A stretch of DNA of 64,000 bases from Ricordea florida (Eukaryota > Cnidaria > Anthozoa > Corallimorpharia > Ricordeidae): NCBI GenBank assembly GCA_949710005.1, contig OX453287.1, positions 22,607,285 through 22,671,284 of the forward strand, in the 5' to 3' direction. The translations under genes and the position numbers were made by a program. Positions 5,034 to 64,000 of this stretch are shown piece by piece. A model generated the notes under the pieces. That model saw only the letters and a list, made by a program, of their open reading frames with translations, ran no database searches and was not told the origin of the DNA. The stretch's first letter is position 1. The number at the start of each line of letters is the position of its first letter.

Positions 5034-5148
5034 GTAAGACTTTCCTTGAATAATCTTCGTGCCATTCTGCAGAGGTCGATTATGTTTCATAGCCTCCCGC
5101 TGTAATAAGGACTAATAAGTTTCAATTAGATTATTACCTAAACATATC

Positions 5149-5481
5149 TGAAGAATTCTCCTCGGTGTTGGACGGTTTTATTTATCACAACAACGATGTA
5201 GAAGCGAATCTACGGGAAAACGTACAGTAATATAAATACACTTAAAACAAAATAAAGCACGGCCGACATTGTACCAGCTGACAATGTACTTACAACTGTA
5301 ATAAAACGTCCTTTAGTCCTGAAGAGCTTCTTAATAAAACGATACCAAGGTATTAGTCAACAAAATGTCCGAGTATATCGACATGGTCTGCGGACGTTCC
5401 CTTAAGGGGTGAGTCCGTGGTGTGTTCAGTTGTGTAATGTCTCATGTTGGCCAGCGGTGTGCTGGTTCGACAAACTCTGCA
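5149..5481 (-). repeat. 3' LTR of the Ty3 element
   Basis: On the element strand it runs TGCAGAGTTTGTC ... GAATTCTTCA. It is the same as the 5' LTR at 10247-10581 except for CCTTTAG versus CCTTTTTAG near 5313-5319. It contains a TATA box, an AATAAA and the 13-nt self-complementary segment (5197-5209) described for the 5' LTR. Confidence 0.97.
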
Positions 5482-5490
5482 TCCCCCCCC
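5482..5490 (-). other. Polypurine tract of the Ty3 element
   Basis: Eight G followed by A on the element strand, directly against the 3' LTR. This is the position and composition expected for the RNase H-resistant primer of plus-strand DNA synthesis. Confidence 0.8.
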
Positions 5491-5519: not shown

Positions 5520-8500
5520 TTATATCCATTTGCCTGTTTCGGGTTCGAAGCGTTTCGGCGGCTGGCGAACGCGCCTAGGACGGGGGCTGCTTGCCTGTAG
5601 GCCATGTTGCGGGGTTGGTGGTCCCGATGTGGTTAGGTCGTTTCGCGCGTCAGGGTGCGCGTCAGAAGGGCTGTCATCTTCGGGGGGTAGTGCATGGGTG
5701 GGGCGGAGCGAGAGGTCCTCCAGAGTTGGTGGTATGTCTGGTTCTGCTGGAGTGGCGGGGGGAGTTGCACGCTGGTGACAACTGGAAGGGGGGTTAGCCG
5801 GTGCTATACATGGTGTGGCAGGCGTGTATGCCCGAAGGAAGCGGCGGTTGCGTGATGTGAGACGTCCCGACCCATCCACTTTGACTACATACTGATCATG
5901 TTCCTTTTTCTCTACGACCGTGCCGGATCTATCCCATTTGTTGGGGTGTGTCCCTTGCTGGTTCTGCAGGAAAACCTGCTCGCCCGTTGACAATGGACGG
6001 AGGGGTCGCGAGTGCTCCTTTAGTGTTTCCACTGTTCTGGACAGTCTTGTTCTGAGGGCTTCCTCTTTAGCTGCCCAAGCATTGCGCCACAGTGGGCGAA
6101 TGTTGGGGTTCGAGAACTTCTCCAGTCGATTAGCGAAGGAGAATGTATCGCGTAGCGGCCGTCCAAAGACGATTTCGGCTGGCGAGAGGCTACAGTCGGG
6201 ATCAGGGGTGTTGCGCAGCTGGAGCATGGCCCGCAGGAAGCCATCGTGGTTAAGGCTGCCTGATGGCCCGGTGTTGGACATCAAGAGGCGTTTTGCGGTT
6301 TTGACAGCTACCTCTGCCCTCCCATTGGACTGGGGAAAATGTGCGGAGGAGAGACGGTGTCGGATTCCCCATTGGCGGAGGAAGGTTTCTGTGCATCCCG
6401 TTGTGAACTCCGGGCCTCCGTCGGTGGATATCTCTGCGGGTACCCCGAACGTGGCAAAGAGTGCTCGGAGGTGGCGAAGCAGACCATTGGCGCCCGCGAG
6501 GTTGGTGCTTGATGGAGAGCTGAAGACTTCCACCCATCCTGAGAGGCGGTCCCCTACCGCGAGGTAGTGGTGGCCTCCATAATTGAAGAAATCAGCAAAC
6601 ACGGCTTCAAATGGCGTGGAAGGCGGTGGGGATGGTATTGGTGGGGTTGAGGTCTGTGAGGGTGCGTTTCGATTGCAATCAGTACATCTGTCCCTTGTTA
6701 TGCGGATGTCCTTTGTCATTCCTGGCCAGTAGACTATCATGCGTGCACGGTGTTCCATTGTCGAGGTTCCTTGGTGAGCTGCGTGTAGGTGCCGCAGGAC
6801 CTGTGGGCGGAGTGAAGGGGGGACCACTATCCGATCCTGGTACATGAGGACACCTTGCTCGACGTAGAGTGCCTCACGGATCGGCCAGAAGGCTGCGAGC
6901 TTGGGGTCCGATCGATCGATATCCTGCTGCCCCTGCTCAATCATACTGCGCAAGCGACTCAGCGATGGGTCCGCCTCTGTCTCCTGGGCGATGTCAGCCC
7001 ATGAGATGATGCCGAGCTGCTGGGCTTCACTGCGGATGGCGGACATCATGATGGTCTCTGGCGTGTCCACTGAGTCCTCTGAGACTGATGGCGATGGATG
7101 ACGTGATGTTGCATCGGCTGCATGGTTTAGCTTTCCAGGGAGGTGCGCAATGTCGAAGCGCCATGGAAGCGTGCGCTGCTTGAGTCTGAAAAGGCGTGAG
7201 TTCGATATCTCATCAAGTGTGCGGTCACCGAAGATCTTTGTGAGCGGCTTGTGATCGGTGACGACAACAAGGTTGTCACAGCCTTGCGTGAAATAGCGTG
7301 TCTGTTCTAGTCCCCAGGCGACGGCCAGAGCCTCACCCTCGATGGGAGCGTAACGTTGCTCAGCTGACGAGAGGAACCTTGATCCTGCTAGGGTAATCCG
7401 CCATCCTTCTGTACAGCAATCAGGGAGTCCCGATGGGCAGTTGCAGTGTTGCTGAAGCAAAAAATATCCTATCCCACGTCGGGACCAGTCAGGGCGGAGG
7501 CATGTGCGTCTTGTTATGTCGAATATCTCCACGCCCTGGCGAATGGCATCAACGATGGCTTGCTTTGACGCTTGGAACGCGTCCTCAAGTTCTGCAGACC
7601 ACGAGAATTTGTAGCGGGGGCTCAGAAACGGCTTGAATGGCGTCATGGTATCTCGTAGTTGGGCGTAGTTGGCCACCTGATTAACGAGGCCGAACCAGCT
7701 TCTGATGTCAGTGGTTGAGGTTGGAGACGGGAAGTCTCTTATGGCGTCTAAGTATTTCGGTAGCGGTTCGATGGCAGATTCAGATATCCTGAAACCCGCG
7801 AAGTCCGCACGTTTGCTGGCAAATTGGAATTTGTCAGGGTTTAGTACGATTCCGGCTTGACCAAGGTGGGTGAGTAAGTCGATCGTGCGCCACCAGTGCT
7901 GCTCTAGATCAGAATCATAATGAATCATGTCGTCCACGCAACGTTCCTTGCGGTCAAAGCTGGAGAGGATGGCATCGAAGCGGCGGTTGTAGCCGTCACC
8001 CGACGACAGGAATCCCTGGGGTGCTCTGGTGTAGCGCCACCGTCCAAACGGGGTGATGAACGTTGTCAAGTGCCGGTCAGACTCGCGTAAGGGGACACTA
8101 TGGTACCCGTTCCACGCGTCAGTCACCGTTTTCCAACTGTCTCTAGGTATTCTGCGCGCTGAATGGAAGGGCGACTCGGCGGCGAATGTCTCCCGTTGGC
8201 AGAACTTGTTCAGTGGTGATAGATCAACGGTGCGGCGTGGTGAGCCGTCATGCTTTCTGGTGACGACCATCCGGTGGCACCAGGTGACAGGCTCGCCGTA
8301 GGGCACCCTTTCGATGACTCCGAGTGCTTCGTCGCGCAGAAGGTCATCGTAGACCTGCTGCTGCCAATGGAGTGGCACAGCGGCTGGGGTGTGGCAAGCC
8401 TTTGGTGTCGCGTTGGGGTCGACATGTATTTCTATGGCTGGTCCATCCATGCACGGCAGTGTCTGGTGAGGGCAGGTGTTGAATGTTGAAGATGCGTATC

Positions 8501-10217
8501 TGTTAAGCAGCCATTGTTTCATCTGACCATTGTTCTCAGCCCGGCATTCAAAAGGGAGCTCCGACGGGCGGCTGGGTGCTTGTCTCCGTTGGGGACATGA
8601 GCAATGTTGGCCCGATACGTTACAGGATTCCCCTGTGTCTTGGGCGGTGGGGTTGCGTTGCGTGTTATAGTCGCGTGTGGGGAAGGTATGTGGCAGGATG
8701 CCCAGGCTGACGAGCGTGTCGTATGATAAATACATAGTATTCACGGCACGGCTGACATATACCATGGAGCGGCATGTGATTACCTCTCCGTCGTGGGTTC
8801 TGTATGTGATCTTGGCAAAGAACGCTCCCTCGATGGCGATGGGAGAGCGATTGGCCGCAGACATGCTGAGAGTGACGGGTGTCAGTATGTCTGGTGAAAA
8901 TCCGCAGGCTAGAAAGTCGGCAAATGACCACAGATCCGACTGCGCACCAGTGTCTGCAACGGCTGATACATCGGCGCGGGCCTTTGCTGTCACGCCTGGG
9001 ACGGTGGTGTGGTCAACCGCCTCGGACTCGGCGGTGATAGTGATATGCACTGTGGGTTGGGCTTTTAGACGCGCCCGCCGCCACTCGCCCTTCGTGAAGA
9101 CGTGGTGATCGAGTTTGATTGGCTTACGTCCATTGAAGCTGTGTGTTGGAAATTTCCGTCTTCGGTGCCGTCTGTTTCGTCGAGGAGATTTGACTGGAAT
9201 TGGTAGGAGCGCCGCAATCTGGGAGACCTGCTCTGACTCTCCATCAGCGTGAAATGCAGATGCGGAGGCCTGGGGCGTCCCTCGTGTTCGTTTGTTCCGG
9301 CGGCGAGTTCGGTAGCACAAAATGCACACCTGGTGGGGCTTTGTGTTCCAGCCCCGTGCTCCTTCCGTAAAGGTCTTGAATCGCTGCTGGCAATCCGGGC
9401 ACGTGGCTTCTTTTGCCTGGTCTACTAGGGACGGTGTAGGGTTTGGTGCTGCGGTGTTGGAGTTAAGCCGAGGATTCTGTTGGCGTCGGAATGAAGACAT
9501 AGCAGATAGGCTTGATGTTGGAAGTGCGTTTCGAGCCTTCTCTTTGGCCTCCACGAGGGAGATTACATCGTTCACCGCCGTCTGTGTGATGTCTCGTGTC
9601 CCGAGTACCTCACGGCGGATGTCAGGGTCGGCGATGCCGTTTAACAGGACGTCTCTAGACATGTGAGGTGTGTAGTCTACATGTTTTCCACATTCGCACT
9701 TCGTGGTAAATTCGCATGTCTCAGCTTTGCCTCGGACCCTCGCGGCGAAGGAACGGAATGGTTCATCGCGTTCCTGTTGAAGCTGAAGGAGCTCGGTTCT
9801 CAGGACGCCAGTTGCTATGGGGATGACTGCCAAGGAGCGCATGGTCTCCAAAAGCTGTGGCAGGTTGTCTGAGATGGCATCTGGGTTAGTCTTGAGTATA
9901 TTGTCTCCGAGCTGAGGGCCCGCGCACTGAAATAGCTGGGCCGGTGCGGTAGCATCAGTGATGCCTGATCCAGTGCGAAACACGTGCCAACGTCTTACGA
10001 ATACATTCCAGTCTTCTGTGGATACGCCGACGTCGATTTTTGGTCGTTCGAGCGCTGGCGCACGTGGGGTTTGCGTCGTGGCTGCTGGTTCGGCGCTAGG
10101 AGTCGGGGTTGTTTGATGAGCAAGCCCGTGGTTCTGTAGCAGGGCAATGGCCAGTGCTTCGGAGACGTCAGGTGTCGTAAACTCGCATGTTGGAACCGAA
10201 CAGCCTACAATAACCAT
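5520..10217 (-). CDS. Ty3/gypsy Gag-Pol polyprotein, 1565 residues, single frame
   Basis: One uninterrupted frame encodes Gag, protease, reverse transcriptase, RNase H and integrase in Ty3 order. Gag spans about residues 1-400. It has no CCHC knuckle but has a ribbon-like CPDC ... H-x3-CILC cluster (273-301). The protease motif ADTGAQ is near 421. Reverse transcriptase is about 605-870, with VDLSPLNKF, PQGFLSSGD and the catalytic CVDD (760-763), Cys replacing the usual Tyr/Phe. RNase H is about 905-1040 with PDWS, EGEALA and TDHKPL. Integrase is about 1130-1400: an H-x4-H/CTDC zinc module (1143-1179), then D1209, D1266 and E1302 of the D,D-35-E core. A GPY/F-like region follows (about 1428-1462). 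No chromodomain follows it, only a Pro-rich tail. Gag and Pol share one frame, with no visible frameshift. It belongs with the K02A2.6-like group common in marine invertebrates, judged from motif memory. Confidence 0.95.
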   Translation of the reverse strand: MVIVGCSVPTCEFTTPDVSEALAIALLQNHGLAHQTTPTPSAEPAATTQTPRAPALERPKIDVGVSTEDWNVFVRRWHVFRTGSGITDATAPAQLFQCAGPQLGDNILKTNPDAISDNLPQLLETMRSLAVIPIATGVLRTELLQLQQERDEPFRSFAARVRGKAETCEFTTKCECGKHVDYTPHMSRDVLLNGIADPDIRREVLGTRDITQTAVNDVISLVEAKEKARNALPTSSLSAMSSFRRQQNPRLNSNTAAPNPTPSLVDQAKEATCPDCQQRFKTFTEGARGWNTKPHQVCILCYRTRRRNKRTRGTPQASASAFHADGESEQVSQIAALLPIPVKSPRRNRRHRRRKFPTHSFNGRKPIKLDHHVFTKGEWRRARLKAQPTVHITITAESEAVDHTTVPGVTAKARADVSAVADTGAQSDLWSFADFLACGFSPDILTPVTLSMSAANRSPIAIEGAFFAKITYRTHDGEVITCRSMVYVSRAVNTMYLSYDTLVSLGILPHTFPTRDYNTQRNPTAQDTGESCNVSGQHCSCPQRRQAPSRPSELPFECRAENNGQMKQWLLNRYASSTFNTCPHQTLPCMDGPAIEIHVDPNATPKACHTPAAVPLHWQQQVYDDLLRDEALGVIERVPYGEPVTWCHRMVVTRKHDGSPRRTVDLSPLNKFCQRETFAAESPFHSARRIPRDSWKTVTDAWNGYHSVPLRESDRHLTTFITPFGRWRYTRAPQGFLSSGDGYNRRFDAILSSFDRKERCVDDMIHYDSDLEQHWWRTIDLLTHLGQAGIVLNPDKFQFASKRADFAGFRISESAIEPLPKYLDAIRDFPSPTSTTDIRSWFGLVNQVANYAQLRDTMTPFKPFLSPRYKFSWSAELEDAFQASKQAIVDAIRQGVEIFDITRRTCLRPDWSRRGIGYFLLQQHCNCPSGLPDCCTEGWRITLAGSRFLSSAEQRYAPIEGEALAVAWGLEQTRYFTQGCDNLVVVTDHKPLTKIFGDRTLDEISNSRLFRLKQRTLPWRFDIAHLPGKLNHAADATSRHPSPSVSEDSVDTPETIMMSAIRSEAQQLGIISWADIAQETEADPSLSRLRSMIEQGQQDIDRSDPKLAAFWPIREALYVEQGVLMYQDRIVVPPSLRPQVLRHLHAAHQGTSTMEHRARMIVYWPGMTKDIRITRDRCTDCNRNAPSQTSTPPIPSPPPSTPFEAVFADFFNYGGHHYLAVGDRLSGWVEVFSSPSSTNLAGANGLLRHLRALFATFGVPAEISTDGGPEFTTGCTETFLRQWGIRHRLSSAHFPQSNGRAEVAVKTAKRLLMSNTGPSGSLNHDGFLRAMLQLRNTPDPDCSLSPAEIVFGRPLRDTFSFANRLEKFSNPNIRPLWRNAWAAKEEALRTRLSRTVETLKEHSRPLRPLSTGEQVFLQNQQGTHPNKWDRSGTVVEKKEHDQYVVKVDGSGRLTSRNRRFLRAYTPATPCIAPANPPSSCHQRATPPATPAEPDIPPTLEDLSLRPTHALPPEDDSPSDAHPDARNDLTTSGPPTPQHGLQASSPRPRRVRQPPKRFEPETGKWI

Positions 10218-10233: not shown

Positions 10234-10246
10234 ATTCGCTTCTACA
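10234..10246 (-). promoter_or_regulatory. Atypical primer-binding site complementary to the element's own LTR
   Basis: The 13 nt directly after the 5' LTR read UGUAGAAGCGAAU in the element RNA. They do not begin with UGG, as a site for a tRNA CCA end would. They are the exact reverse complement of AUUCGCUUCUACA at 10307-10295 inside the LTR. That makes self-priming, as in Schizosaccharomyces Tf1, the simplest reading. Confidence 0.65.
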
Positions 10247-10581
10247 TGAAGAATTCTCCTCGGTGTTGGACGGTTTTATTTATCACAACAACGATGTAGA
10301 AGCGAATCTACGGGAAAACGTACAGTAATATAAATACACTTAAAACAAAATAAAGCACGGCCGACATTGTACCAGCTGACAATGTACTTACAACTGTAAT
10401 AAAACGTCCTTTTTAGTCCTGAAGAGCTTCTTAATAAAACGATACCAAGGTATTAGTCAACAAAATGTCCGAGTATATCGACATGGTCTGCGGACGTTCC
10501 CTTAAGGGGTGAGTCCGTGGTGTGTTCAGTTGTGTAATGTCTCATGTTGGCCAGCGGTGTGCTGGTTCGACAAACTCTGCA
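10247..10581 (-). repeat. 5' LTR of the Ty3 element
   Basis: 335 bp, TG...CA on the element strand. U3 runs from 10581 to about 10308. It ends with TATTTATA at 10336-10329. The predicted transcription start about 30 nt further on falls at about 10307. An AATAAA lies within TGATAAATAAAACC near 10285-10272. R therefore seems to start with AUUCGCUUCUACA, the stretch complementary to the primer-binding site. Confidence 0.95.
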
Positions 10582-11130
10582 ATATCATATACCTGATGGA
10601 ATTTTCACCGCTTTGTTTCGGCGAAAACTACTCACTGAGGTGTTTTATCCGTTTCATTGAAACTCATTTCGTTTTGGCGCGAAAATAAGAGATACTGGTA
10701 CTGTACGTCGAAAAAGTGCTGTAAAGTTAAGCTTATGCTTGTTTACAAAATTATTCAACCTTACATTCGATTACATCGAGTAGAAGCACTTTTCTCAGAG
10801 TTTTTTTTAACATTACATGAGTTAGGAATCATGCAGGACTTCCTGTCAGAAAGACGCAGTGCAGAAGTATCAAAGATGGCCGCCGCGTATGTTTAAGCTT
10901 ACCTGTTCGATGCAAAATGTTGTGTTATTTTTGTAAAAAACAAGCAGTGTTTTGAAAGAAAAACTATTTGAATCTCATTGCCATTAATTGTTACAAGAAA
11001 GTCACCTAAACATGAGTTTCAAGATAATGTACATGTACATATACTTTGCTATTCAGGAATTAAAGGCTCAATATAGTACATGGATTATGTGGCTATTTCT
11101 TTCTTTTCTGTTACAATAATTTTAATTAAC
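10582..11130. promoter_or_regulatory. Non-coding DNA with E2F-like and YY1-like sites
   Basis: TTTTGGCGCGAAAA at 10672-10685 is a full palindromic E2F/DP consensus. AAGATGGCCGCC at 10873-10884 matches the YY1 core. Both are typical of housekeeping or replication-gene promoters. No first exon was identified next to them: the ATG inside the YY1-like site gives only MAAAYV before a stop. Before the Ty3 insertion this block lay about 600 bp beyond the exon at 4964-5033. Confidence 0.35.
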
Positions 11131-50901: not shown

Positions 50902-53900
50902 TCAAATTGAAGATTCAAATTGACTGACTGGTAAAAGATTACTTCGACTCTCTTCGCCGAGAATTTGAAACGAAAGAGTCACAGAATCGTCACCATTGTT
51001 ATACCGCGCAATACCAGGGACTGGAGACGAGGTATCGCGGTCAGCTTGGGGAGGACTCTGGGAACACTGCTGTTGTCTTCTAACCTCAAGGCCTGGGACA
51101 GGTGTTTGAGGAGGACTGAGGCGAGACTGGGAGTGAGATAGTGGGTCTCCGTCCGCACGCGGTTCGCCTGCGTTTGCTTTACAATAGAACCACGAACCAA
51201 AATAAAAGATTGTGGATAGCACTGAAAATACAATAAAAACGGCTCCTGATAAGATATAAAACCCACCTTTAAACTCTTTAAAATCTGAATATCAAATAAG
51301 CTACAACTTTTTGTTTTTAAACATAAATTGCTTCTTCCACTAGCCTTCCTCCAAAAACGTTCTTTGAGCTTGGTCACGCATTCTTCAATTTGTGTGGCAC
51401 GTGACAAAGTGTAAAGAACGTCTCTTCAGGAGACACCCGAACAATAGCAAGTCCGCTGGTAAAATGCTATAAAAGGTAACGTAAACGTAATGGCAGGGTG
51501 GGTGGAAGGGAAATATCACTGCATTTCTCTGCGTGCCCTGGGTACAGTGCGCACACTGTGTACAGTGCGCACACTGTGTACAGTGCTCACATTGTGTACA
51601 GTGCTCACACTGTGTACAGTGCTCACACTGTGTACAGTGCTCACACTGTGTACAGTGCTCACACTGTGTACAGTGCGCACACTGTGTACAGTGCGCACAC
51701 TGTGTAATGTGCGCACACTGTGTACAGTGCGCACACTGTGTACAGTGCTCACACTGTGTACAGTGCTCACACTGTGTACAGTGCTCACACTGTGTACAGT
51801 GCTCACACTGTGTACAGTGCTCACACTGTGTACAGTGCGCACACTGTGTACAGTGCGCACACTGTGTACAGTGCGCACACTGTGTACAGTGCGCACACTG
51901 TGTACAGTGCGCACACTGTGTACAGTGCGCACACTGTGTACAGTGCTCACACTGTGTACAGTGCTCACACTGTGTACAGTGCGCACACTGTGTACAGTGC
52001 GCACACTGTGTACAGTGCTCAGTCTGTGTACAGTGCGCACACTGTGTACAGTGCTCACACTGTGTACAGTGCTCACACTGTGTACAGTGCTCACACTGTG
52101 TACAGTGCGCACACTGTGTACAGTGCGCACACTGTGTACAGTGCGCACACTGTGTACAGTGCGCACACTGTGTACAGTGCGCACACTGTGTACAGTGCTC
52201 ACACTGTGTACAGTGCGCACACTGTGTACAGTGCGCACACTGTGTACAGTGCGCACACTGTGTACAGTGCGCACACTGTGTACAGTGCGCACACTGTGTA
52301 CAGTGCTCACACTGTGTACAGTGCGCACACTGTGTACAGTGCGCACACTGTGTACAGTGCGCACACTGTGTACAGTGCTCACACTGTGTACAGTGCTCAC
52401 ACTGTGTACAGTGCTCACACTGTGTACAGTGCTCACACTGTGTACAGTGCTCACACTGTGTACAGTGCTCACACTGTGTACAGTGCTCACACTGTGTACA
52501 GTGCGCACACTGTGTACAGTGCGCACACTGTGTACAGTGCGCACACTGTGTACAGTGCGCACACTGTGTACAGTGCGCACACTGTGTACAGTGCTCACAC
52601 TGTGTACAGTGCTCACACTGTGTACAGTGCGCACACTGTGTACAGTGCGCACACTGTGTACAGTGCGCACACTGTGTACAGTGCGCACACTGTGTACAGT
52701 GCGCACACTGTGTACAGTGCTCACACTGTGTACAGTGCTCACACTGTGTACAGTGCTCACACTGTGTACAGTGCTCACACTGTGTACAGTGCTCACACTG
52801 TGTACAGTGCGCACACTGTGTACAGTGCGCACACTGTGTACAGTGCGCACACTGTGTACAGTGCGCACACTGTGTACAGTGCTCACACTGTGTACAGTGC
52901 TCACACTGTGTACAGTGCTCACACTGTGTACAGTGCTCACACTGTGTACAGTGCTCACACTGTGTACAGTGCGCACACTGTGTACAGTGCGCACACTGTG
53001 TACAGTGCGCACACTGTGTACAGTGCGCACACTGTGTACAGTGCGCACACTGTGTACAGTGCGCACACTGTGTACAGTGCGCACACTGTGTACAGTGCTC
53101 ACACTGTGTACATTGCTCACACTGTGTACAGTGCGCACACTGTGTACAGTGCGCACACTGTGTACAGTGCTCACACTGTGTACAGTGCTCACACTGTGTA
53201 CAGTGCTCACACTGTGTACAGTGCTCACACTGTGTACAGTGCGCACACTGTGTACAGTGCTCACACTGTGTACAGTGCTCACACTGTGTACAGTGCGCAC
53301 ACTGTGTACAGTGCGCACACTGTGTACAGTGCTCACACTGTGTACAGTGCGCACACTGTGTACAGTGCGCACACTGTGTACAGTGCTTAGTCTGTGTACA
53401 GTGCGCACACTGTGTACAGTGCTCACACTGTGTACAGTGCGCACACTGTGTACAGTGCGCACACTGTGTACAGTGAGCACACTGTGTACAGTGCGCACAC
53501 TGTGTACAGTGCGCACACTGTGTACAGTGCGCACACTGTGTACAGTGCGCACACTGTGTACAGTGCTCACACTGTGTACAGTGCGCACACTGTGTACAGT
53601 GCGCACACTGTGTACAGTGCGCACACTGTGTACAGTGCGCACACTGTGTACAGTGCTCACACTGCGTACAGTGCGCACACTGTGTACAGTGCGCACACTG
53701 TGTACAGTGCGCACACTGTGTACAGTGCGCACACTGTGTACAGTGCTCACACTGTGTACAGTGCTCACACTGTGTACAGTGCGCACACTGTGTACAGTGC
53801 GCACACTGTGTACAGTGCGCACACTGTGTACAGTGCGCACACTGTGTACAGTGCTCACACTGTGTACAGTGCGCACACTGTGTACAGTGCGCACACTGTG

Positions 53901-56900
53901 TACAGTGCTCACACTGTGTACAGTGCTCACACTGTGTACAGTGCTCACACTGTGTACAGTGCTCACACTGTGTACAGTGCTCACACTGTGTACAGTGCTC
54001 ACACTGTGTACAGTGCTCACACTGTGTACAGTGCTCACACTGTGTACAGTGCGCACACTGTGTACAGTGCTCACACTGTGTACAGTGCTCACACTGTGTA
54101 CAGTGCTCACACTGTGTACAGTGCTCACACTGTGTACAGTGCTCACACTGTGTACAGTGCTCACACTGTGTACAGTGCTCACACTGTGTACAGTGCGCAC
54201 ACTGTGTACAGTGCTCACACTGTGTACAGTGCGCACACTGTGTACAGTGCGCACACTGTGTACAGTGCTCACACTGTGTACAGTGCGCACACTGTGTACA
54301 GTGCGCACACTGTGTACAGTGCGCACACTGTGTACAGTGCTCACACTGTGTACAGTGCTCACACTGTGTACAGTGCTCACACTGTGTACAGTGCTCACAC
54401 TGTGTACAGTGCGCACACTGTGTACAGTGCTCACACTGTGTACAGTGCTCACACTGTGTACAGTGCGCACACTGTGTACAGTGCGCACACTGTGTACAGT
54501 GCTCACACTGTGTACAGTGCGCACACTGTGTACAGTGCGCACACTGTGTACAGTGCTTAGTCTGTGTACAGTGCGCACACTGTGTACAGTGCTCACACTG
54601 TGTACAGTGCGCACACTGTGTACAGTGCGCACACTGTGTACAGTGAGCACACTGTGTACAGTGCGCACACTGTGTACAGTGCGCACACTGTGTACAGTGC
54701 GCACACTGTGTACAGTGCGCACACTGTGTACAGTGCTCACACTGTGTACAGTGCGCACACTGTGTACAGTGCGCACACTGTGTACAGTGCGCACACTGTG
54801 TACAGTGCGCACACTGTGTACAGTGCTCACACTGTGTACAGTGCGCACACTGTGTACAGTGCGCACACTGTGTACAGTGCGCACACTGTGTACAGTGCTC
54901 ACACTGTGTACAGTGCTCACACTGTGTACAGTGCTCACACTGTGTACAGTGCTCACACTGTGTACAGTGCTCACACTGTGTACAGTGCTCACACTGTGTA
55001 CAGTGCTCACACTGTGTACAGTGCGCACACTGTGTACAGTGCTCACACTGTGTACAGTGCTCACACTGTGTACAGTGCTCACACTGTGTAGTGCTCACAC
55101 TGTGTACAGTGCTCACACTGTGTACAGTGCTCACACTGTGTACAGTGCTCACACTGTGTACAGTGCTCACACTGTGTACAGTGCTCACACTGTGTACATT
55201 GCTCACACTGTGTACAGTGCGCACACTGTGTACAGTGCGCACACTGTGTACAGTGCTCACACTGTGTACAGTGCTCACACTGTGTACAGTGCTCACACTG
55301 TGTACAGTGCGCACACTGTGTACAGTGCGCACACTGTGTACAGTGCTCACACTGTGTACAGTGCGCACACTGTGTACAGTGCGCACACTGTGTACAGTGC
55401 TCACACTGTGTACAGTGCGCACACTGTGTACAGTGCGCACACTGTGTACAGTGCTTAGTCTGTGTACAGTGCGCACACTGTGTACAGTGCTCACACTGTG
55501 TACAGTGCTCACACTGTGTACAGTGCGCACACTGTGTACAGTGTGCACACTGTGTACAGTGCTCAGTCTGTGTACAGTGCGCACACTGTGTACAGTGCTC
55601 ACACTGTGTACAGTGCTCACACTGTGTACAGTGCTCACACTGTGTACAGTGCTCACACTGTGTACAGTGCTCACACTGTGTACAGTGCTCACACTGTGTA
55701 CAGTGCTCACACTGTGTACAGTGCTCACACTGTGTACAGTGCTCACAGTGTACAGTGCTCACACTGTGTACAGTGCGCACACTGTGTACAGTGCTCACAC
55801 TGTGTACAGTGCTCACACTGTGTACAGTGCGCACACTTTGTACAGTGCGCACACTGTGTACAGTGCTCACACTGTGTACAGTGCGCACACTGTGTACAGT
55901 GCGCACACTGTGTACAGTGCTCAGTCTGTGTACAGTGCGCACACTGTGTACAGTGCTCACACTGTGTACAGTGCTCACACTGTGTACAGTGCTCACACTG
56001 TGTACAGTGCTCACACTGTGTACAGTGCTCAGTCTGTGTACAGTGTGCACACTGTGTACAGTGCTCACACTGTGTACAGTGCTCACACTGTGTACAGTGC
56101 GCACACTGTGTACAGTGCTCACACTGTGTACAGTGCTCAGTCTGTGTACAGTGTGCACACTGTGTACAGTGCTCACACTGTGTACAGTGCTCACACTGTG
56201 TACAGTGCTCACACTGTGTACAGTGCGCACACTTTGTACAGTGCGCACACTGTGTACAGTGCTCACACTGTGTACAGTGCGCACACTGTGTACAGTGCTC
56301 ACACTGTGTACAGTGCGCACACTGTGTACAGTGCTCACACTGTGTACAGTGCTCAGTCTGTTTAAGATACTCCATCGTGGTCCCCAAGATTTTCAAGCCT
56401 TGAGACCGACCGGTTAGCTCAGTTGGCAGAGCACCGGACTATCGTGCGGAAGGTCACTGGTTTGAACCTTGGCCGGACCATCACCCAGGGTATCTAAATT
56501 ACTGAGGAGAAAGTGCTGCCTTTGCAATGATATCTATAAAATGGTTAGACTTTCTAGTCTTCTCGAACAAGGAAGACAAACCCTTGTTCGTACTACTTAG
56601 TGGGACGCTAAAGAACCCACACACTGTTTGCGAAGATTAAGTGACGTAGTTCCCGTCTACTGGGTTTCCTCGCTACCTTCACTAGTGCTGCGACATTATT
56701 ATACGTAAACGTGTAATGACACATTTAAAAATTAAAAAATAATAAATACTAATAGTATATCAATTATATGCACTCTTGGGCCATAGGTATTTTGGTTTAA
56801 TTCGATCTATTTTCATTCACTGATTTTTCGGTGGCCTCAGTATACTTTCATTGGGGATTGAAATCCGAAAGCTAAGTTTTAGTTTGTCTGTTTAGTATAT

Positions 56901-62900: not shown

Positions 62901-63693
62901 CACGCAGTGTGACTGACTACCTCTCCCAATGAATTTGTCGACATCTCGAATGTCGGTTAATAAATATTAAAAGCTCAGTGCAATATTTCGAGCGCATGAA
63001 TTTTTTTCAACATCACACCTGATTGGTAACGAACGAAGAATCCTCTCCCCGCTTCCATCCCCCTCAAACACACACACGCGCACGCGCACTCACCCACCCT
63101 GAGAACCAAGTTTGATTGGCCCTTTACCTGAATCAGATCCACCCACACGTTGAGAAGCGACCCTCCAGCGACGTAACCAATCCCAGGGCCAAAAAACGTG
63201 GCCGTAAACCACACGCCCAGATACATGGGCGCAGCTTTGGGGTTTACATTCTCGTCAATATACGCTGGACCGAGCGTAAACAAGGGCGTTGTCCCTGCTC
63301 CAAGAAGAAGTTTGGCACCTATGAACACCAGCATGTACTTCCAAGCCGTGTAGCCCTTTGCTTCGGCGCAAATCTCTTCGTACGGTGGTTTTACGGTGGT
63401 ATTAAACAAACACAAGTCTCCAGTTTCCGTTTTGCTAAATTCAATAGGAGTATACTTTCCGACAAGCACGTGCGGCAGAGCGAACAGCAAGCACCCAAGG
63501 CTCGTAACCAGGGCCCCCAGGCCAAGCCATCTGGCCTTGTTTCTATGGCCACCGAAGTAACTAATGAAGATGATCAGCAACAGAGCGGATACGTCGTTAG
63601 CTGCCACTATCATTCCCGTCTGTTTGCTGGTCAGTTTGAAACGCTTTTCTAAAGACGTGAGGCCTGCTGCTGTTAAACCAGTGGCGATCATTC
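50902..63693 (-). CDS. Organic anion transporter (OATP/SLCO family), N-terminus outside window
   Basis: Seven exons on the minus strand: 63693-63128, 62436-62073, 61351-61135, 60246-60093, 58998-58823, 57642-57428, 51284-50902. Phases join for about 690 residues. The OATP signature DDPRWIGAWWLG is in the second exon. The Kazal-like extracellular loop 5 is in the fourth (C-x3-C-x-C, DPVCGVDELSYFSPCHAGC). TM-like segments include LLLIIFISYFGG, LLFALPHVLVG and FIFQFIGTWAVLTFLI, and the last exon gives TM12 (GAVFIVFSVLSTIFYFGSW) and a Ser/Pro-rich cytoplasmic tail. It should import amphipathic organic anions across the plasma membrane; it looks closest to SLCO4-type sequences. Codons before ...GMIATGL lie right of 63693 beyond the window. 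The last intron (57427-51285) holds the 18-bp satellite. The join to the final exon uses the acceptor GATATTCAG|A and is the least certain one. Confidence 0.93.
51541..56363. repeat. 18-bp satellite array, about 268 units, in the last SLCO intron
   Basis: The unit is GTACAGTGCGCACACTGT in phase with two main versions, GTGCGCAC and GTGCTCAC, intermixed along 4.8 kb. Rare versions are GCTCAGTCTG, GCTTAGTCTG, GTGAGCAC, GTGTGCAC, ACTTTGTAC, ACTGCGTAC and CATTGCTC. A 2-bp deletion near 55088 and a shorter unit near 55747 shift the phase. A block of 1170 bp (65 units) is duplicated: GCTTAG at 53385/54555 and GAGCAC at 53474/54644. Because 18 is a multiple of three and the unit has no stop, frames over 1000 codons are open on both strands; I do not regard them as genes. 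Confidence 0.98.
56407..56705 (+). mobile_element. tRNA-derived SINE (family C)
   Basis: The head ACCGGTTAGCTCAGTTGGCA...GGTTTGAACC is tRNA-like with degenerate A and B boxes. The body contains TGGTTAGACTTTCTAGTC, GGGACGCTAAAGAACCC and GTGACGTAGTTCCCG. It abuts the right edge of the 18-bp satellite (44 bp away). Confidence 0.75.
56706..57360. other. SLCO intron DNA with a probable MITE
   Basis: 56940-57310 contains GACCGAGCGATAGCGAGG, TAATGACCGAACGG and the inverse CCGGTCATTAC, then CAGCCAATCAGAGCGCGCG. The pairing TAATGACCG / CGGTCATTA suggests inverted ends. No coding content. Confidence 0.45.
57643..58822. other. SLCO intron with two SINE copies
   Basis: 58290-58630 is a family D SINE in minus orientation (tRNA-like head GACACGGTAGTGTAGTGGTT at 58624-58605 on the minus strand, with an internal duplicate of CACCTGGGTGGAGAGAGACA). 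58650-58810 is the body of SINE family B. A further GCCAATCATAACGCGCGC word lies near 58013. Confidence 0.6.
58999..60092. other. SLCO intron, probable repeats, no gene
   Basis: 59118-59165 is a small foldback (GTTGTGGACTC / GAGTCCACAAC). 59325-59365 has CAGGGCCGGACGG and CCGTCCGGCCCTG inverted words. The short frames there are not supported as genes. Confidence 0.5.
60247..61134. other. SLCO intron with homopolymer and CCA-rich runs
   Basis: A run of about 16 G lies near 60438-60455, and a C13/(CCA)n run near 60877-60920. No gene or recognisable element. Confidence 0.6.
61352..62072. other. SLCO intron, nothing recognised
   Basis: 720 bp of intron between the second and third visible exons. 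I see no gene, RNA or clear repeat in it. Confidence 0.5.
62470..62900. repeat. ~106-bp dispersed satellite (block 6), SLCO intron
   Basis: Three to four units, increasingly degenerate to the right (GTACTGTTTGTTTTACTATA, GGATCAAACCATGCAGTGTG). Same family as in IDE and P450 introns. Confidence 0.88.
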
Positions 63694-63699
63694 CTGGTG

Positions 63700-64000
63700 A
63701 GAAAAAAAAAATATCACTAGTATCCACTACCTCAGCAATCTTGGCATTTCAATTAATCTGATTGGCTCACTATCTCGGGATATACAACATTACTGATATC
63801 AACTCGGCAACCTTGGCATTTCAAGTAATCTGATTGGCTCACCATCTCAGGATATGTAACATTACTGTATATCAACTCGGCAACCTTGGCATTTCAAGTA
63901 ATCTGATTGGCTCACCATCTCGGGATATACAACATTACTGTATATCAACTCGGCAACCTTGGCATTTCAAGTAATCTGATTGGCTCACCATCTCGGGATA
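63700..64000. repeat. ~73-bp tandem repeat running off the window
   Basis: Unit ATCTCGGGATATACAACATT ... CTCGGCAACCTTGGCATTTC, then AAGTAATCTGATTGGCTCACC. Starts at 63772, 63844, 63917 and 63990, so four visible units. It lies in the intron just upstream of the first visible SLCO exon. Confidence 0.93.

Follow-up and report, generated by a model that had tools for sequence, protein, structure and literature searches.

The window, by which we mean the whole 64-kb stretch of cnidarian DNA analysed here, carries a Ty3-type LTR retrotransposon on its minus strand (10581-5149). Comparison of the LTRs, together with inspection of the sequence, delimited a 335-bp 5' LTR of the form TG...CA (TGCAGAG...TTCA; 10247..10581) and a 333-bp 3' LTR (5149..5481), flanked by the target site duplication GATAT at 10582..10586 on the 5' side and at 5144..5148 on the 3' side. 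Between them, the list of open reading frames and a Pfam scan identified a single gag-pol frame of 1565 aa (5520..10217) with reverse transcriptase (RT), RNase H, H2C2 zinc-binding and integrase core domains, and a polypurine tract, GGGGGGGGA, was read from the sequence at 5482..5490, all on the minus strand. The order of RT, RNase H and integrase, the TG...CA termini, the target site duplication of about 5 bp and the polypurine tract are those of Ty3/gypsy elements (Metaviridae). Since the two LTRs differ by 0 mismatches and 2 gap columns, the insertion is young. When the host genome (537.8 Mb in 48 contigs) was searched with a 201-nt query from the LTR end, 40 scored matches were obtained, 8 of which, including the window copy, span the entire query at 99-100%. 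The host is an animal, as the first-pass annotation of this locus had stated, and its remark that no chromodomain is visible also held: Pfam scans of the window protein (E 0.1) and of five relatives (E 1) returned neither a Chromo nor an SH3_Tf2-1 match. Elsewhere in the window, 51538-56355 is a 4.8-kb minisatellite of an 18-bp unit, CTGTGTACAGTGCTCACA, in ~268 copies with 96% matches, which is open in several frames on both strands, and a frame at 62975-63727 (minus strand) resembles by eye an organic anion transporter (SLCO) exon. A 21.4-kb contig of the same genome (C48; L110, L111), apparently of mitochondrial origin, holds cox1 as two matches separated by ~1.1 kb. Translated with table 4, the first part shares 93-94% identity with Anemonia, Zoanthus and Galatheanthemum, 92% with scleractinians and 91% with demosponges. 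These values point to a hexacorallian cnidarian as the most likely host. An intron in cox1 is known from hexacorals, and the split gene fits such an arrangement.

The primer binding site (PBS) of the window element, TGTAGAAGCGAAT (10234..10246, minus strand), is flush with the 5' LTR and begins with TGT. It is the exact reverse complement, over 13 nt, of ATTCGCTTCTACA (10307-10295), a block that stands 48 nt before the LTR end. A TATA-like box, TATTTATA (10329..10336), begins 29 nt upstream of 10307, and an AATAAA at 10275..10280, noted by eye, is likely the poly(A) signal. The absence of UGG next to the LTR, the 13-nt complementarity and the box had all been proposed by the first-pass annotation, and each was confirmed at its position. 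Among 20,000 dinucleotide shuffles of the window LTR, 0 contained a 13-nt match starting from the first base of the PBS, the best shuffle reaching 10. When the 93-nt leader was folded, as had been suggested, the expected hairpin formed, with the 13 pairs as its closing stem (-27.6 kcal/mol, z = -5.2), and 0/200 shuffled leaders were equally stable. A PBS without TGG implies that the CCA end of a mature tRNA would be unable to pair flush with the LTR edge.

RT searches of the same host genome identified three related families, B, C and G, in addition to the window family (A). Family B has an RT ~82% identical to that of the window element, an LTR ending in TACTTCA, and a PBS, TGAAGGAGTC, with the LTR partner GACTCCTTCA. 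The RTs of families C and G are both ~50% identical: C has an LTR ending in TATCTA and, in copy L042, the PBS TGACGAGAACACATAATA, which is complementary at 18/18 positions to that copy's own 3' LTR and at 17/18 to its own 5' LTR, while G has the PBS TGATAACAACGTGAA and the LTR partner TTCACGTTGTTATCA. Whereas the PBS of a tRNA-primed Ty3 element starts with TGG and is complementary to a tRNA 3' CCA end, the sites found here start with TGT in A and with TGA in B, C and G. The four families have unrelated sequences at both sites, and in each the PBS finds its complement, 10-18 nt long, in its own LTR; in a cross-match table the own-match runs are 13 (A), 10 (B), 12 and 16 (C) and 15 and 16 (G), against cross-family runs of at most 6. 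Eight of the first ten (cut-proximal) PBS positions vary among five tabulated sequences, and every cell remains Watson-Crick. A and B share identical short flanks (CGTAG before, TCGTT after) around very different primers. In 20,000 dinucleotide shuffles of each LTR, matches as long as the observed one arose 0 times for C (12 nt) and G (15 nt) and 10 times for B (10 nt), and by family the hairpin z is -6.2 (A), -2.6 (B), -6.6 (C) and -3.7 (G); for B, whose pair is only 10 nt long, 2/200 shuffled leaders fold as well. The same kind of change is visible within family A, where in copies L060 and L062 a C-to-T change in the primer is accompanied by G-to-A at the PBS base that pairs with it (confirmed at 13 nt for L060). 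The observed pairing is thus real and well beyond chance. Conserved, covarying pairing in related elements was among the tests that the first-pass annotation had named for its self-priming geometry, as known from Tf1, and compensatory change, both between families and within family A, supports that geometry.

Overall, the pairing is present in 35/40 clade copies examined (A, B, C and G, plus L069 and L071), a count made after excluding L063, L064 and L065, which are LTRs without a PBS. An alignment of the 14 family-A copies with a 5' junction (L001-L008, L058-L062 and L039, with L001 being the window copy) has all 13 pairs kept in 14/14. Pairing of 10 nt is kept in 7/9 family-B copies (L040, L100-L105), the two misses being a copy whose LTR deletion took out the primer (L098) and one with no 5' LTR at the fetched place (L099). 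Both family-C copies pair (L042, L048), as do 12/13 family-G copies over 13-16 nt (L070, L086, L087, L089-L097), the fetched place of the last, L088, being without element sequence. Two further clade members were counted as misses: L071, for which no pair of at least 10 nt was found, and L069 (H), whose 11-nt hairpin was rejected as a primer pair as it lies ~1.17 kb from the RT, against ~1.85 kb expected, and the 3' LTR is not in the fetched sequence. One family-A copy on contig C11 (L020/L061, ~17.767 Mb) has a deletion from just after the PBS to about element position 2260.

The same genome also contains Ty3 families of the conventional type. Families D, E1 and E2, with RTs 30-35% identical to that of the window element, resemble it in being Ty3 elements with long single open frames (1331-1387 aa). 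Unlike the window clade, they lack the cysteine motif described below and have a tRNA-type PBS, with TGGTGTCAGGAG directly after the LTR, a site that we take to resemble the 3' end of tRNA-Leu; their matches to their own LTRs are 3-4 nt, no better than in shuffles. A further candidate control, L066/L067, was set aside for want of a shared LTR. In an RT tree of Ty3 and host-genome elements, with no chromovirus included and its deep part limited by long branches, the six rows labelled as self-priming form one group (100/100) and the three tRNA-type rows another (100/100). The six include H53, which is the L069 element with no pair at the expected place, and two unlabelled rows also fall inside the self-priming group, one of them the L071 element.

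Taken together, these patterns suggest that a cnidarian Ty3-type element very probably primes reverse transcription with its own RNA. Transcription would start at or near 10307, and the first 13 nt of the RNA would loop back to pair with the PBS. Cleavage after nucleotide 13 (CA|T, at 10295/10294) by the RNase H of the element's RT would release an RNA 3' end, which would be extended into U5 and R. Later, the plus strand would copy the primer and so bring the PBS into agreement with the LTR at every cycle, which would explain the joint change of primer and PBS. LTR complementarity is present in four families, and that the PBS partner is the RNA 5' end is suggested by a TATA-like box in 2/4, from which the RNA start was inferred. 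In A and G this box starts 29 nt ahead of the pairing block, the distance that a transcript beginning with the block would show; B has a weak candidate only (TATCTTA, by eye) and C has none at the right distance.

One family-A insertion on contig C5 (~30.66-30.67 Mb; 5' LTR in L039, 3' LTR in L072, target site duplication ATCCA) carries what may be a trace of this process. Both of its LTRs contain the U5/PBS junction in inverted form, joined into R, with 25 nt identical in L072, and have lost 84 nt of U3/R, the TATA box among them. The 23-nt core of this scar occurs 13 times in the genome, 11 of these being the antisense of normal junctions and 2 being the LTRs of this insertion. Because the scar is present in both LTRs of an element with its own target site duplication, it either arose during reverse transcription or was carried through it. 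It has the appearance of a self-primer to which about ten nucleotides of minus-strand DNA had been added before template switching captured it; we consider this suggestive, because a quasi-palindrome switch at the DNA level that later passed through reverse transcription would give the same sequence. The left edge of the scar is ambiguous by 1 nt, for which reason its use as an exact marker of the RNA 5' end was dropped, and the U5 end of the insertion's 5' LTR is further altered. This copy is apparently interrupted by ~3.1 kb of other sequence between L039 and L019.

Quasi-palindrome template switching is known to yield inverted copies of this type, and the scar, with its ambiguous left edge, could be taken to indicate that the complementarity is an inverted repeat that spreads by template switching at the DNA level and has no role in priming. 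We consider this very improbable, as it leaves unexplained both the same register in four families and the absent tRNA-type site, and as both LTRs of a single insertion, bounded by a target site duplication of its own, carry the scar. A conserved hairpin may instead serve another purpose. Leader hairpins play packaging, dimerisation or masking roles in retroviruses, and a stable one is found in all four families here, so that it might function in RNA packaging, in dimerisation or in hiding a 5' poly(A) signal or start codon while some other RNA primes. Such a role would leave the elements without a primer, as none of the four families has TGG at the LTR edge, and would not require the pair to start exactly there, as it does in each; we therefore regard it as improbable, if the least so of the alternatives.

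As to what another priming RNA might be, half-tRNA primers occur in some copia lineages (PMC6317226), and a tRNA fragment of that kind, or another small host RNA, could in principle prime these elements, their match to the LTR having some other cause. Each family would then need its own RNA plus a coincidental copy of it in the LTR. Moreover, the sole tRNA gene found in the window, a tRNA-Thr, has at most 4 nt in common with the primers of any of the four families, and none of these primers is present in two mitochondrial pieces of the host, all of which makes a small-RNA primer highly unlikely. Self-priming thus remains, in our assessment, by far the most probable reading of the conserved pair.

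Self-priming has been described for the Tf1/sushi chromoviruses of fungi, vertebrates and non-seed plants (PMC7175516, PMC10085805, PMC4600332), while in Tcn1 of non-seed plants and in TAR copia elements it is predicted (PMC6317226, PMC7175516, PMC10085805, PMC4600332). In Tf1, the primer is the first 11 nt of the RNA, released by RNase H cleavage within a three-duplex "pretzel" leader (PMC7175516, PMC10085805). The window clade resembles Tf1/sushi in having a PBS complementary to a stretch of the 5' LTR that is presumed to be where the RNA begins, and the window element shares with Tf1 a single long open frame and an RNase H capable in principle of releasing the primer; it most likely works like members of that group. 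The clade differs from Tf1/sushi in giving no chromodomain or SH3_Tf2-1 match, in a primer of 10-18 nt against 11 nt in Tf1, in an extra CxC...CC motif in RNase H, and in having no third duplex above chance: pairing of post-PBS sequence with the LTR was as low in energy in 140 (A), 346 (B), 231 (C) and 81 (G) of 500 shuffles, in a test of duplex energies only, with no pseudoknot model. Given this result and the lack of a chromodomain match, we do not assign the element to Tf1/sushi. The TAR-type elements of plants have a similar predicted LTR-derived self-primer, but are Ty1/copia rather than Ty3 (PMC6317226), and the dictyostelid Skipper chromoviruses are described as having neither a tRNA site nor LTR complementarity (PMC5006619). 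Within the titles and abstract openings surveyed, in a collection short of most subscription papers, self-priming is not described in any non-chromovirus Ty3 lineage of animals. Mollusc and annelid Gypsy surveys name many new clades, and in their accessible portions PBS terms are absent (mollusc) or general only (annelid), so that the window lineage may already have a name there (PMC6238403, PMC8220671).

The clade is also marked by its protein. An HCxCx6CCxxGW insertion in the RNase H domain, HCNCPSGLPDCCTEGW in the window element (residues 924-939; 7401..7448, minus strand), is common to families A, B, C and G (G being row C2) and absent from D, E1 and E2, two relatives of these, the L074 element and Ty3. 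Its four cysteines are invariant in the 16 and in the 26 aligned rows of two alignments, and a motif scan of 240 listed homologs, the best 120 of each of two protein searches, found CxC...CC in 232/233 evaluable proteins, 7 being not evaluable. A structure model of RT-RNase H was too poor for use (mean pLDDT 54.5). The RT active site, usually a YxDD-type motif, reads C[VI]DD at residues 760-763 of the window frame, and a crude scan found CVDD or CIDD in 191/240 of the listed homologs. As RNase H frees the Tf1 primer (PMC7175516), a putative link between the cysteine insertion and self-primer release is attractive. Homologs of the clade's protein are found in Nematostella vectensis, Actinostola, Diadema antillarum, Mytilus edulis, Festucalex cinctus and Synaphobranchus kaupii, and in two symbiont metagenome-assembled genomes (MAGs) that likely carry host DNA. 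Scans of viral contigs found no relative of the clade, and a scan of genome contigs found one, from a tubeworm-symbiont MAG, that starts inside the coding region and has no readable LTR. Beyond the host genome, where the clade is represented by proteins or LTR-less DNA only, self-priming is predicted.

Dependence on tRNA has been described as a hallmark of LTR retroelements that makes them vulnerable to tRNA fragments directed against them (PMC7472051). If a Ty3 lineage without the chromodomain of the known group has escaped this dependence, this would, if true, mean that the switch in priming is repeatable. More tentatively, and with somewhat less than even confidence, we propose that a non-chromovirus Ty3 clade spread across marine animals (cnidarians, sea urchin, mussel and fishes) acquired self-priming on its own, separately from Tf1/sushi, using a simpler leader of one hairpin, and that its RNase H gained a cysteine-rich insertion that would help to cut the primer, so that one priming switch and one RNase H innovation would mark the whole clade. 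The presence of self-primed and tRNA-primed families in one genome makes a matched comparison possible. The RNase H insertion would serve as a testable molecular correlate, and the covariation of primer and PBS as a readable record of the copying step.
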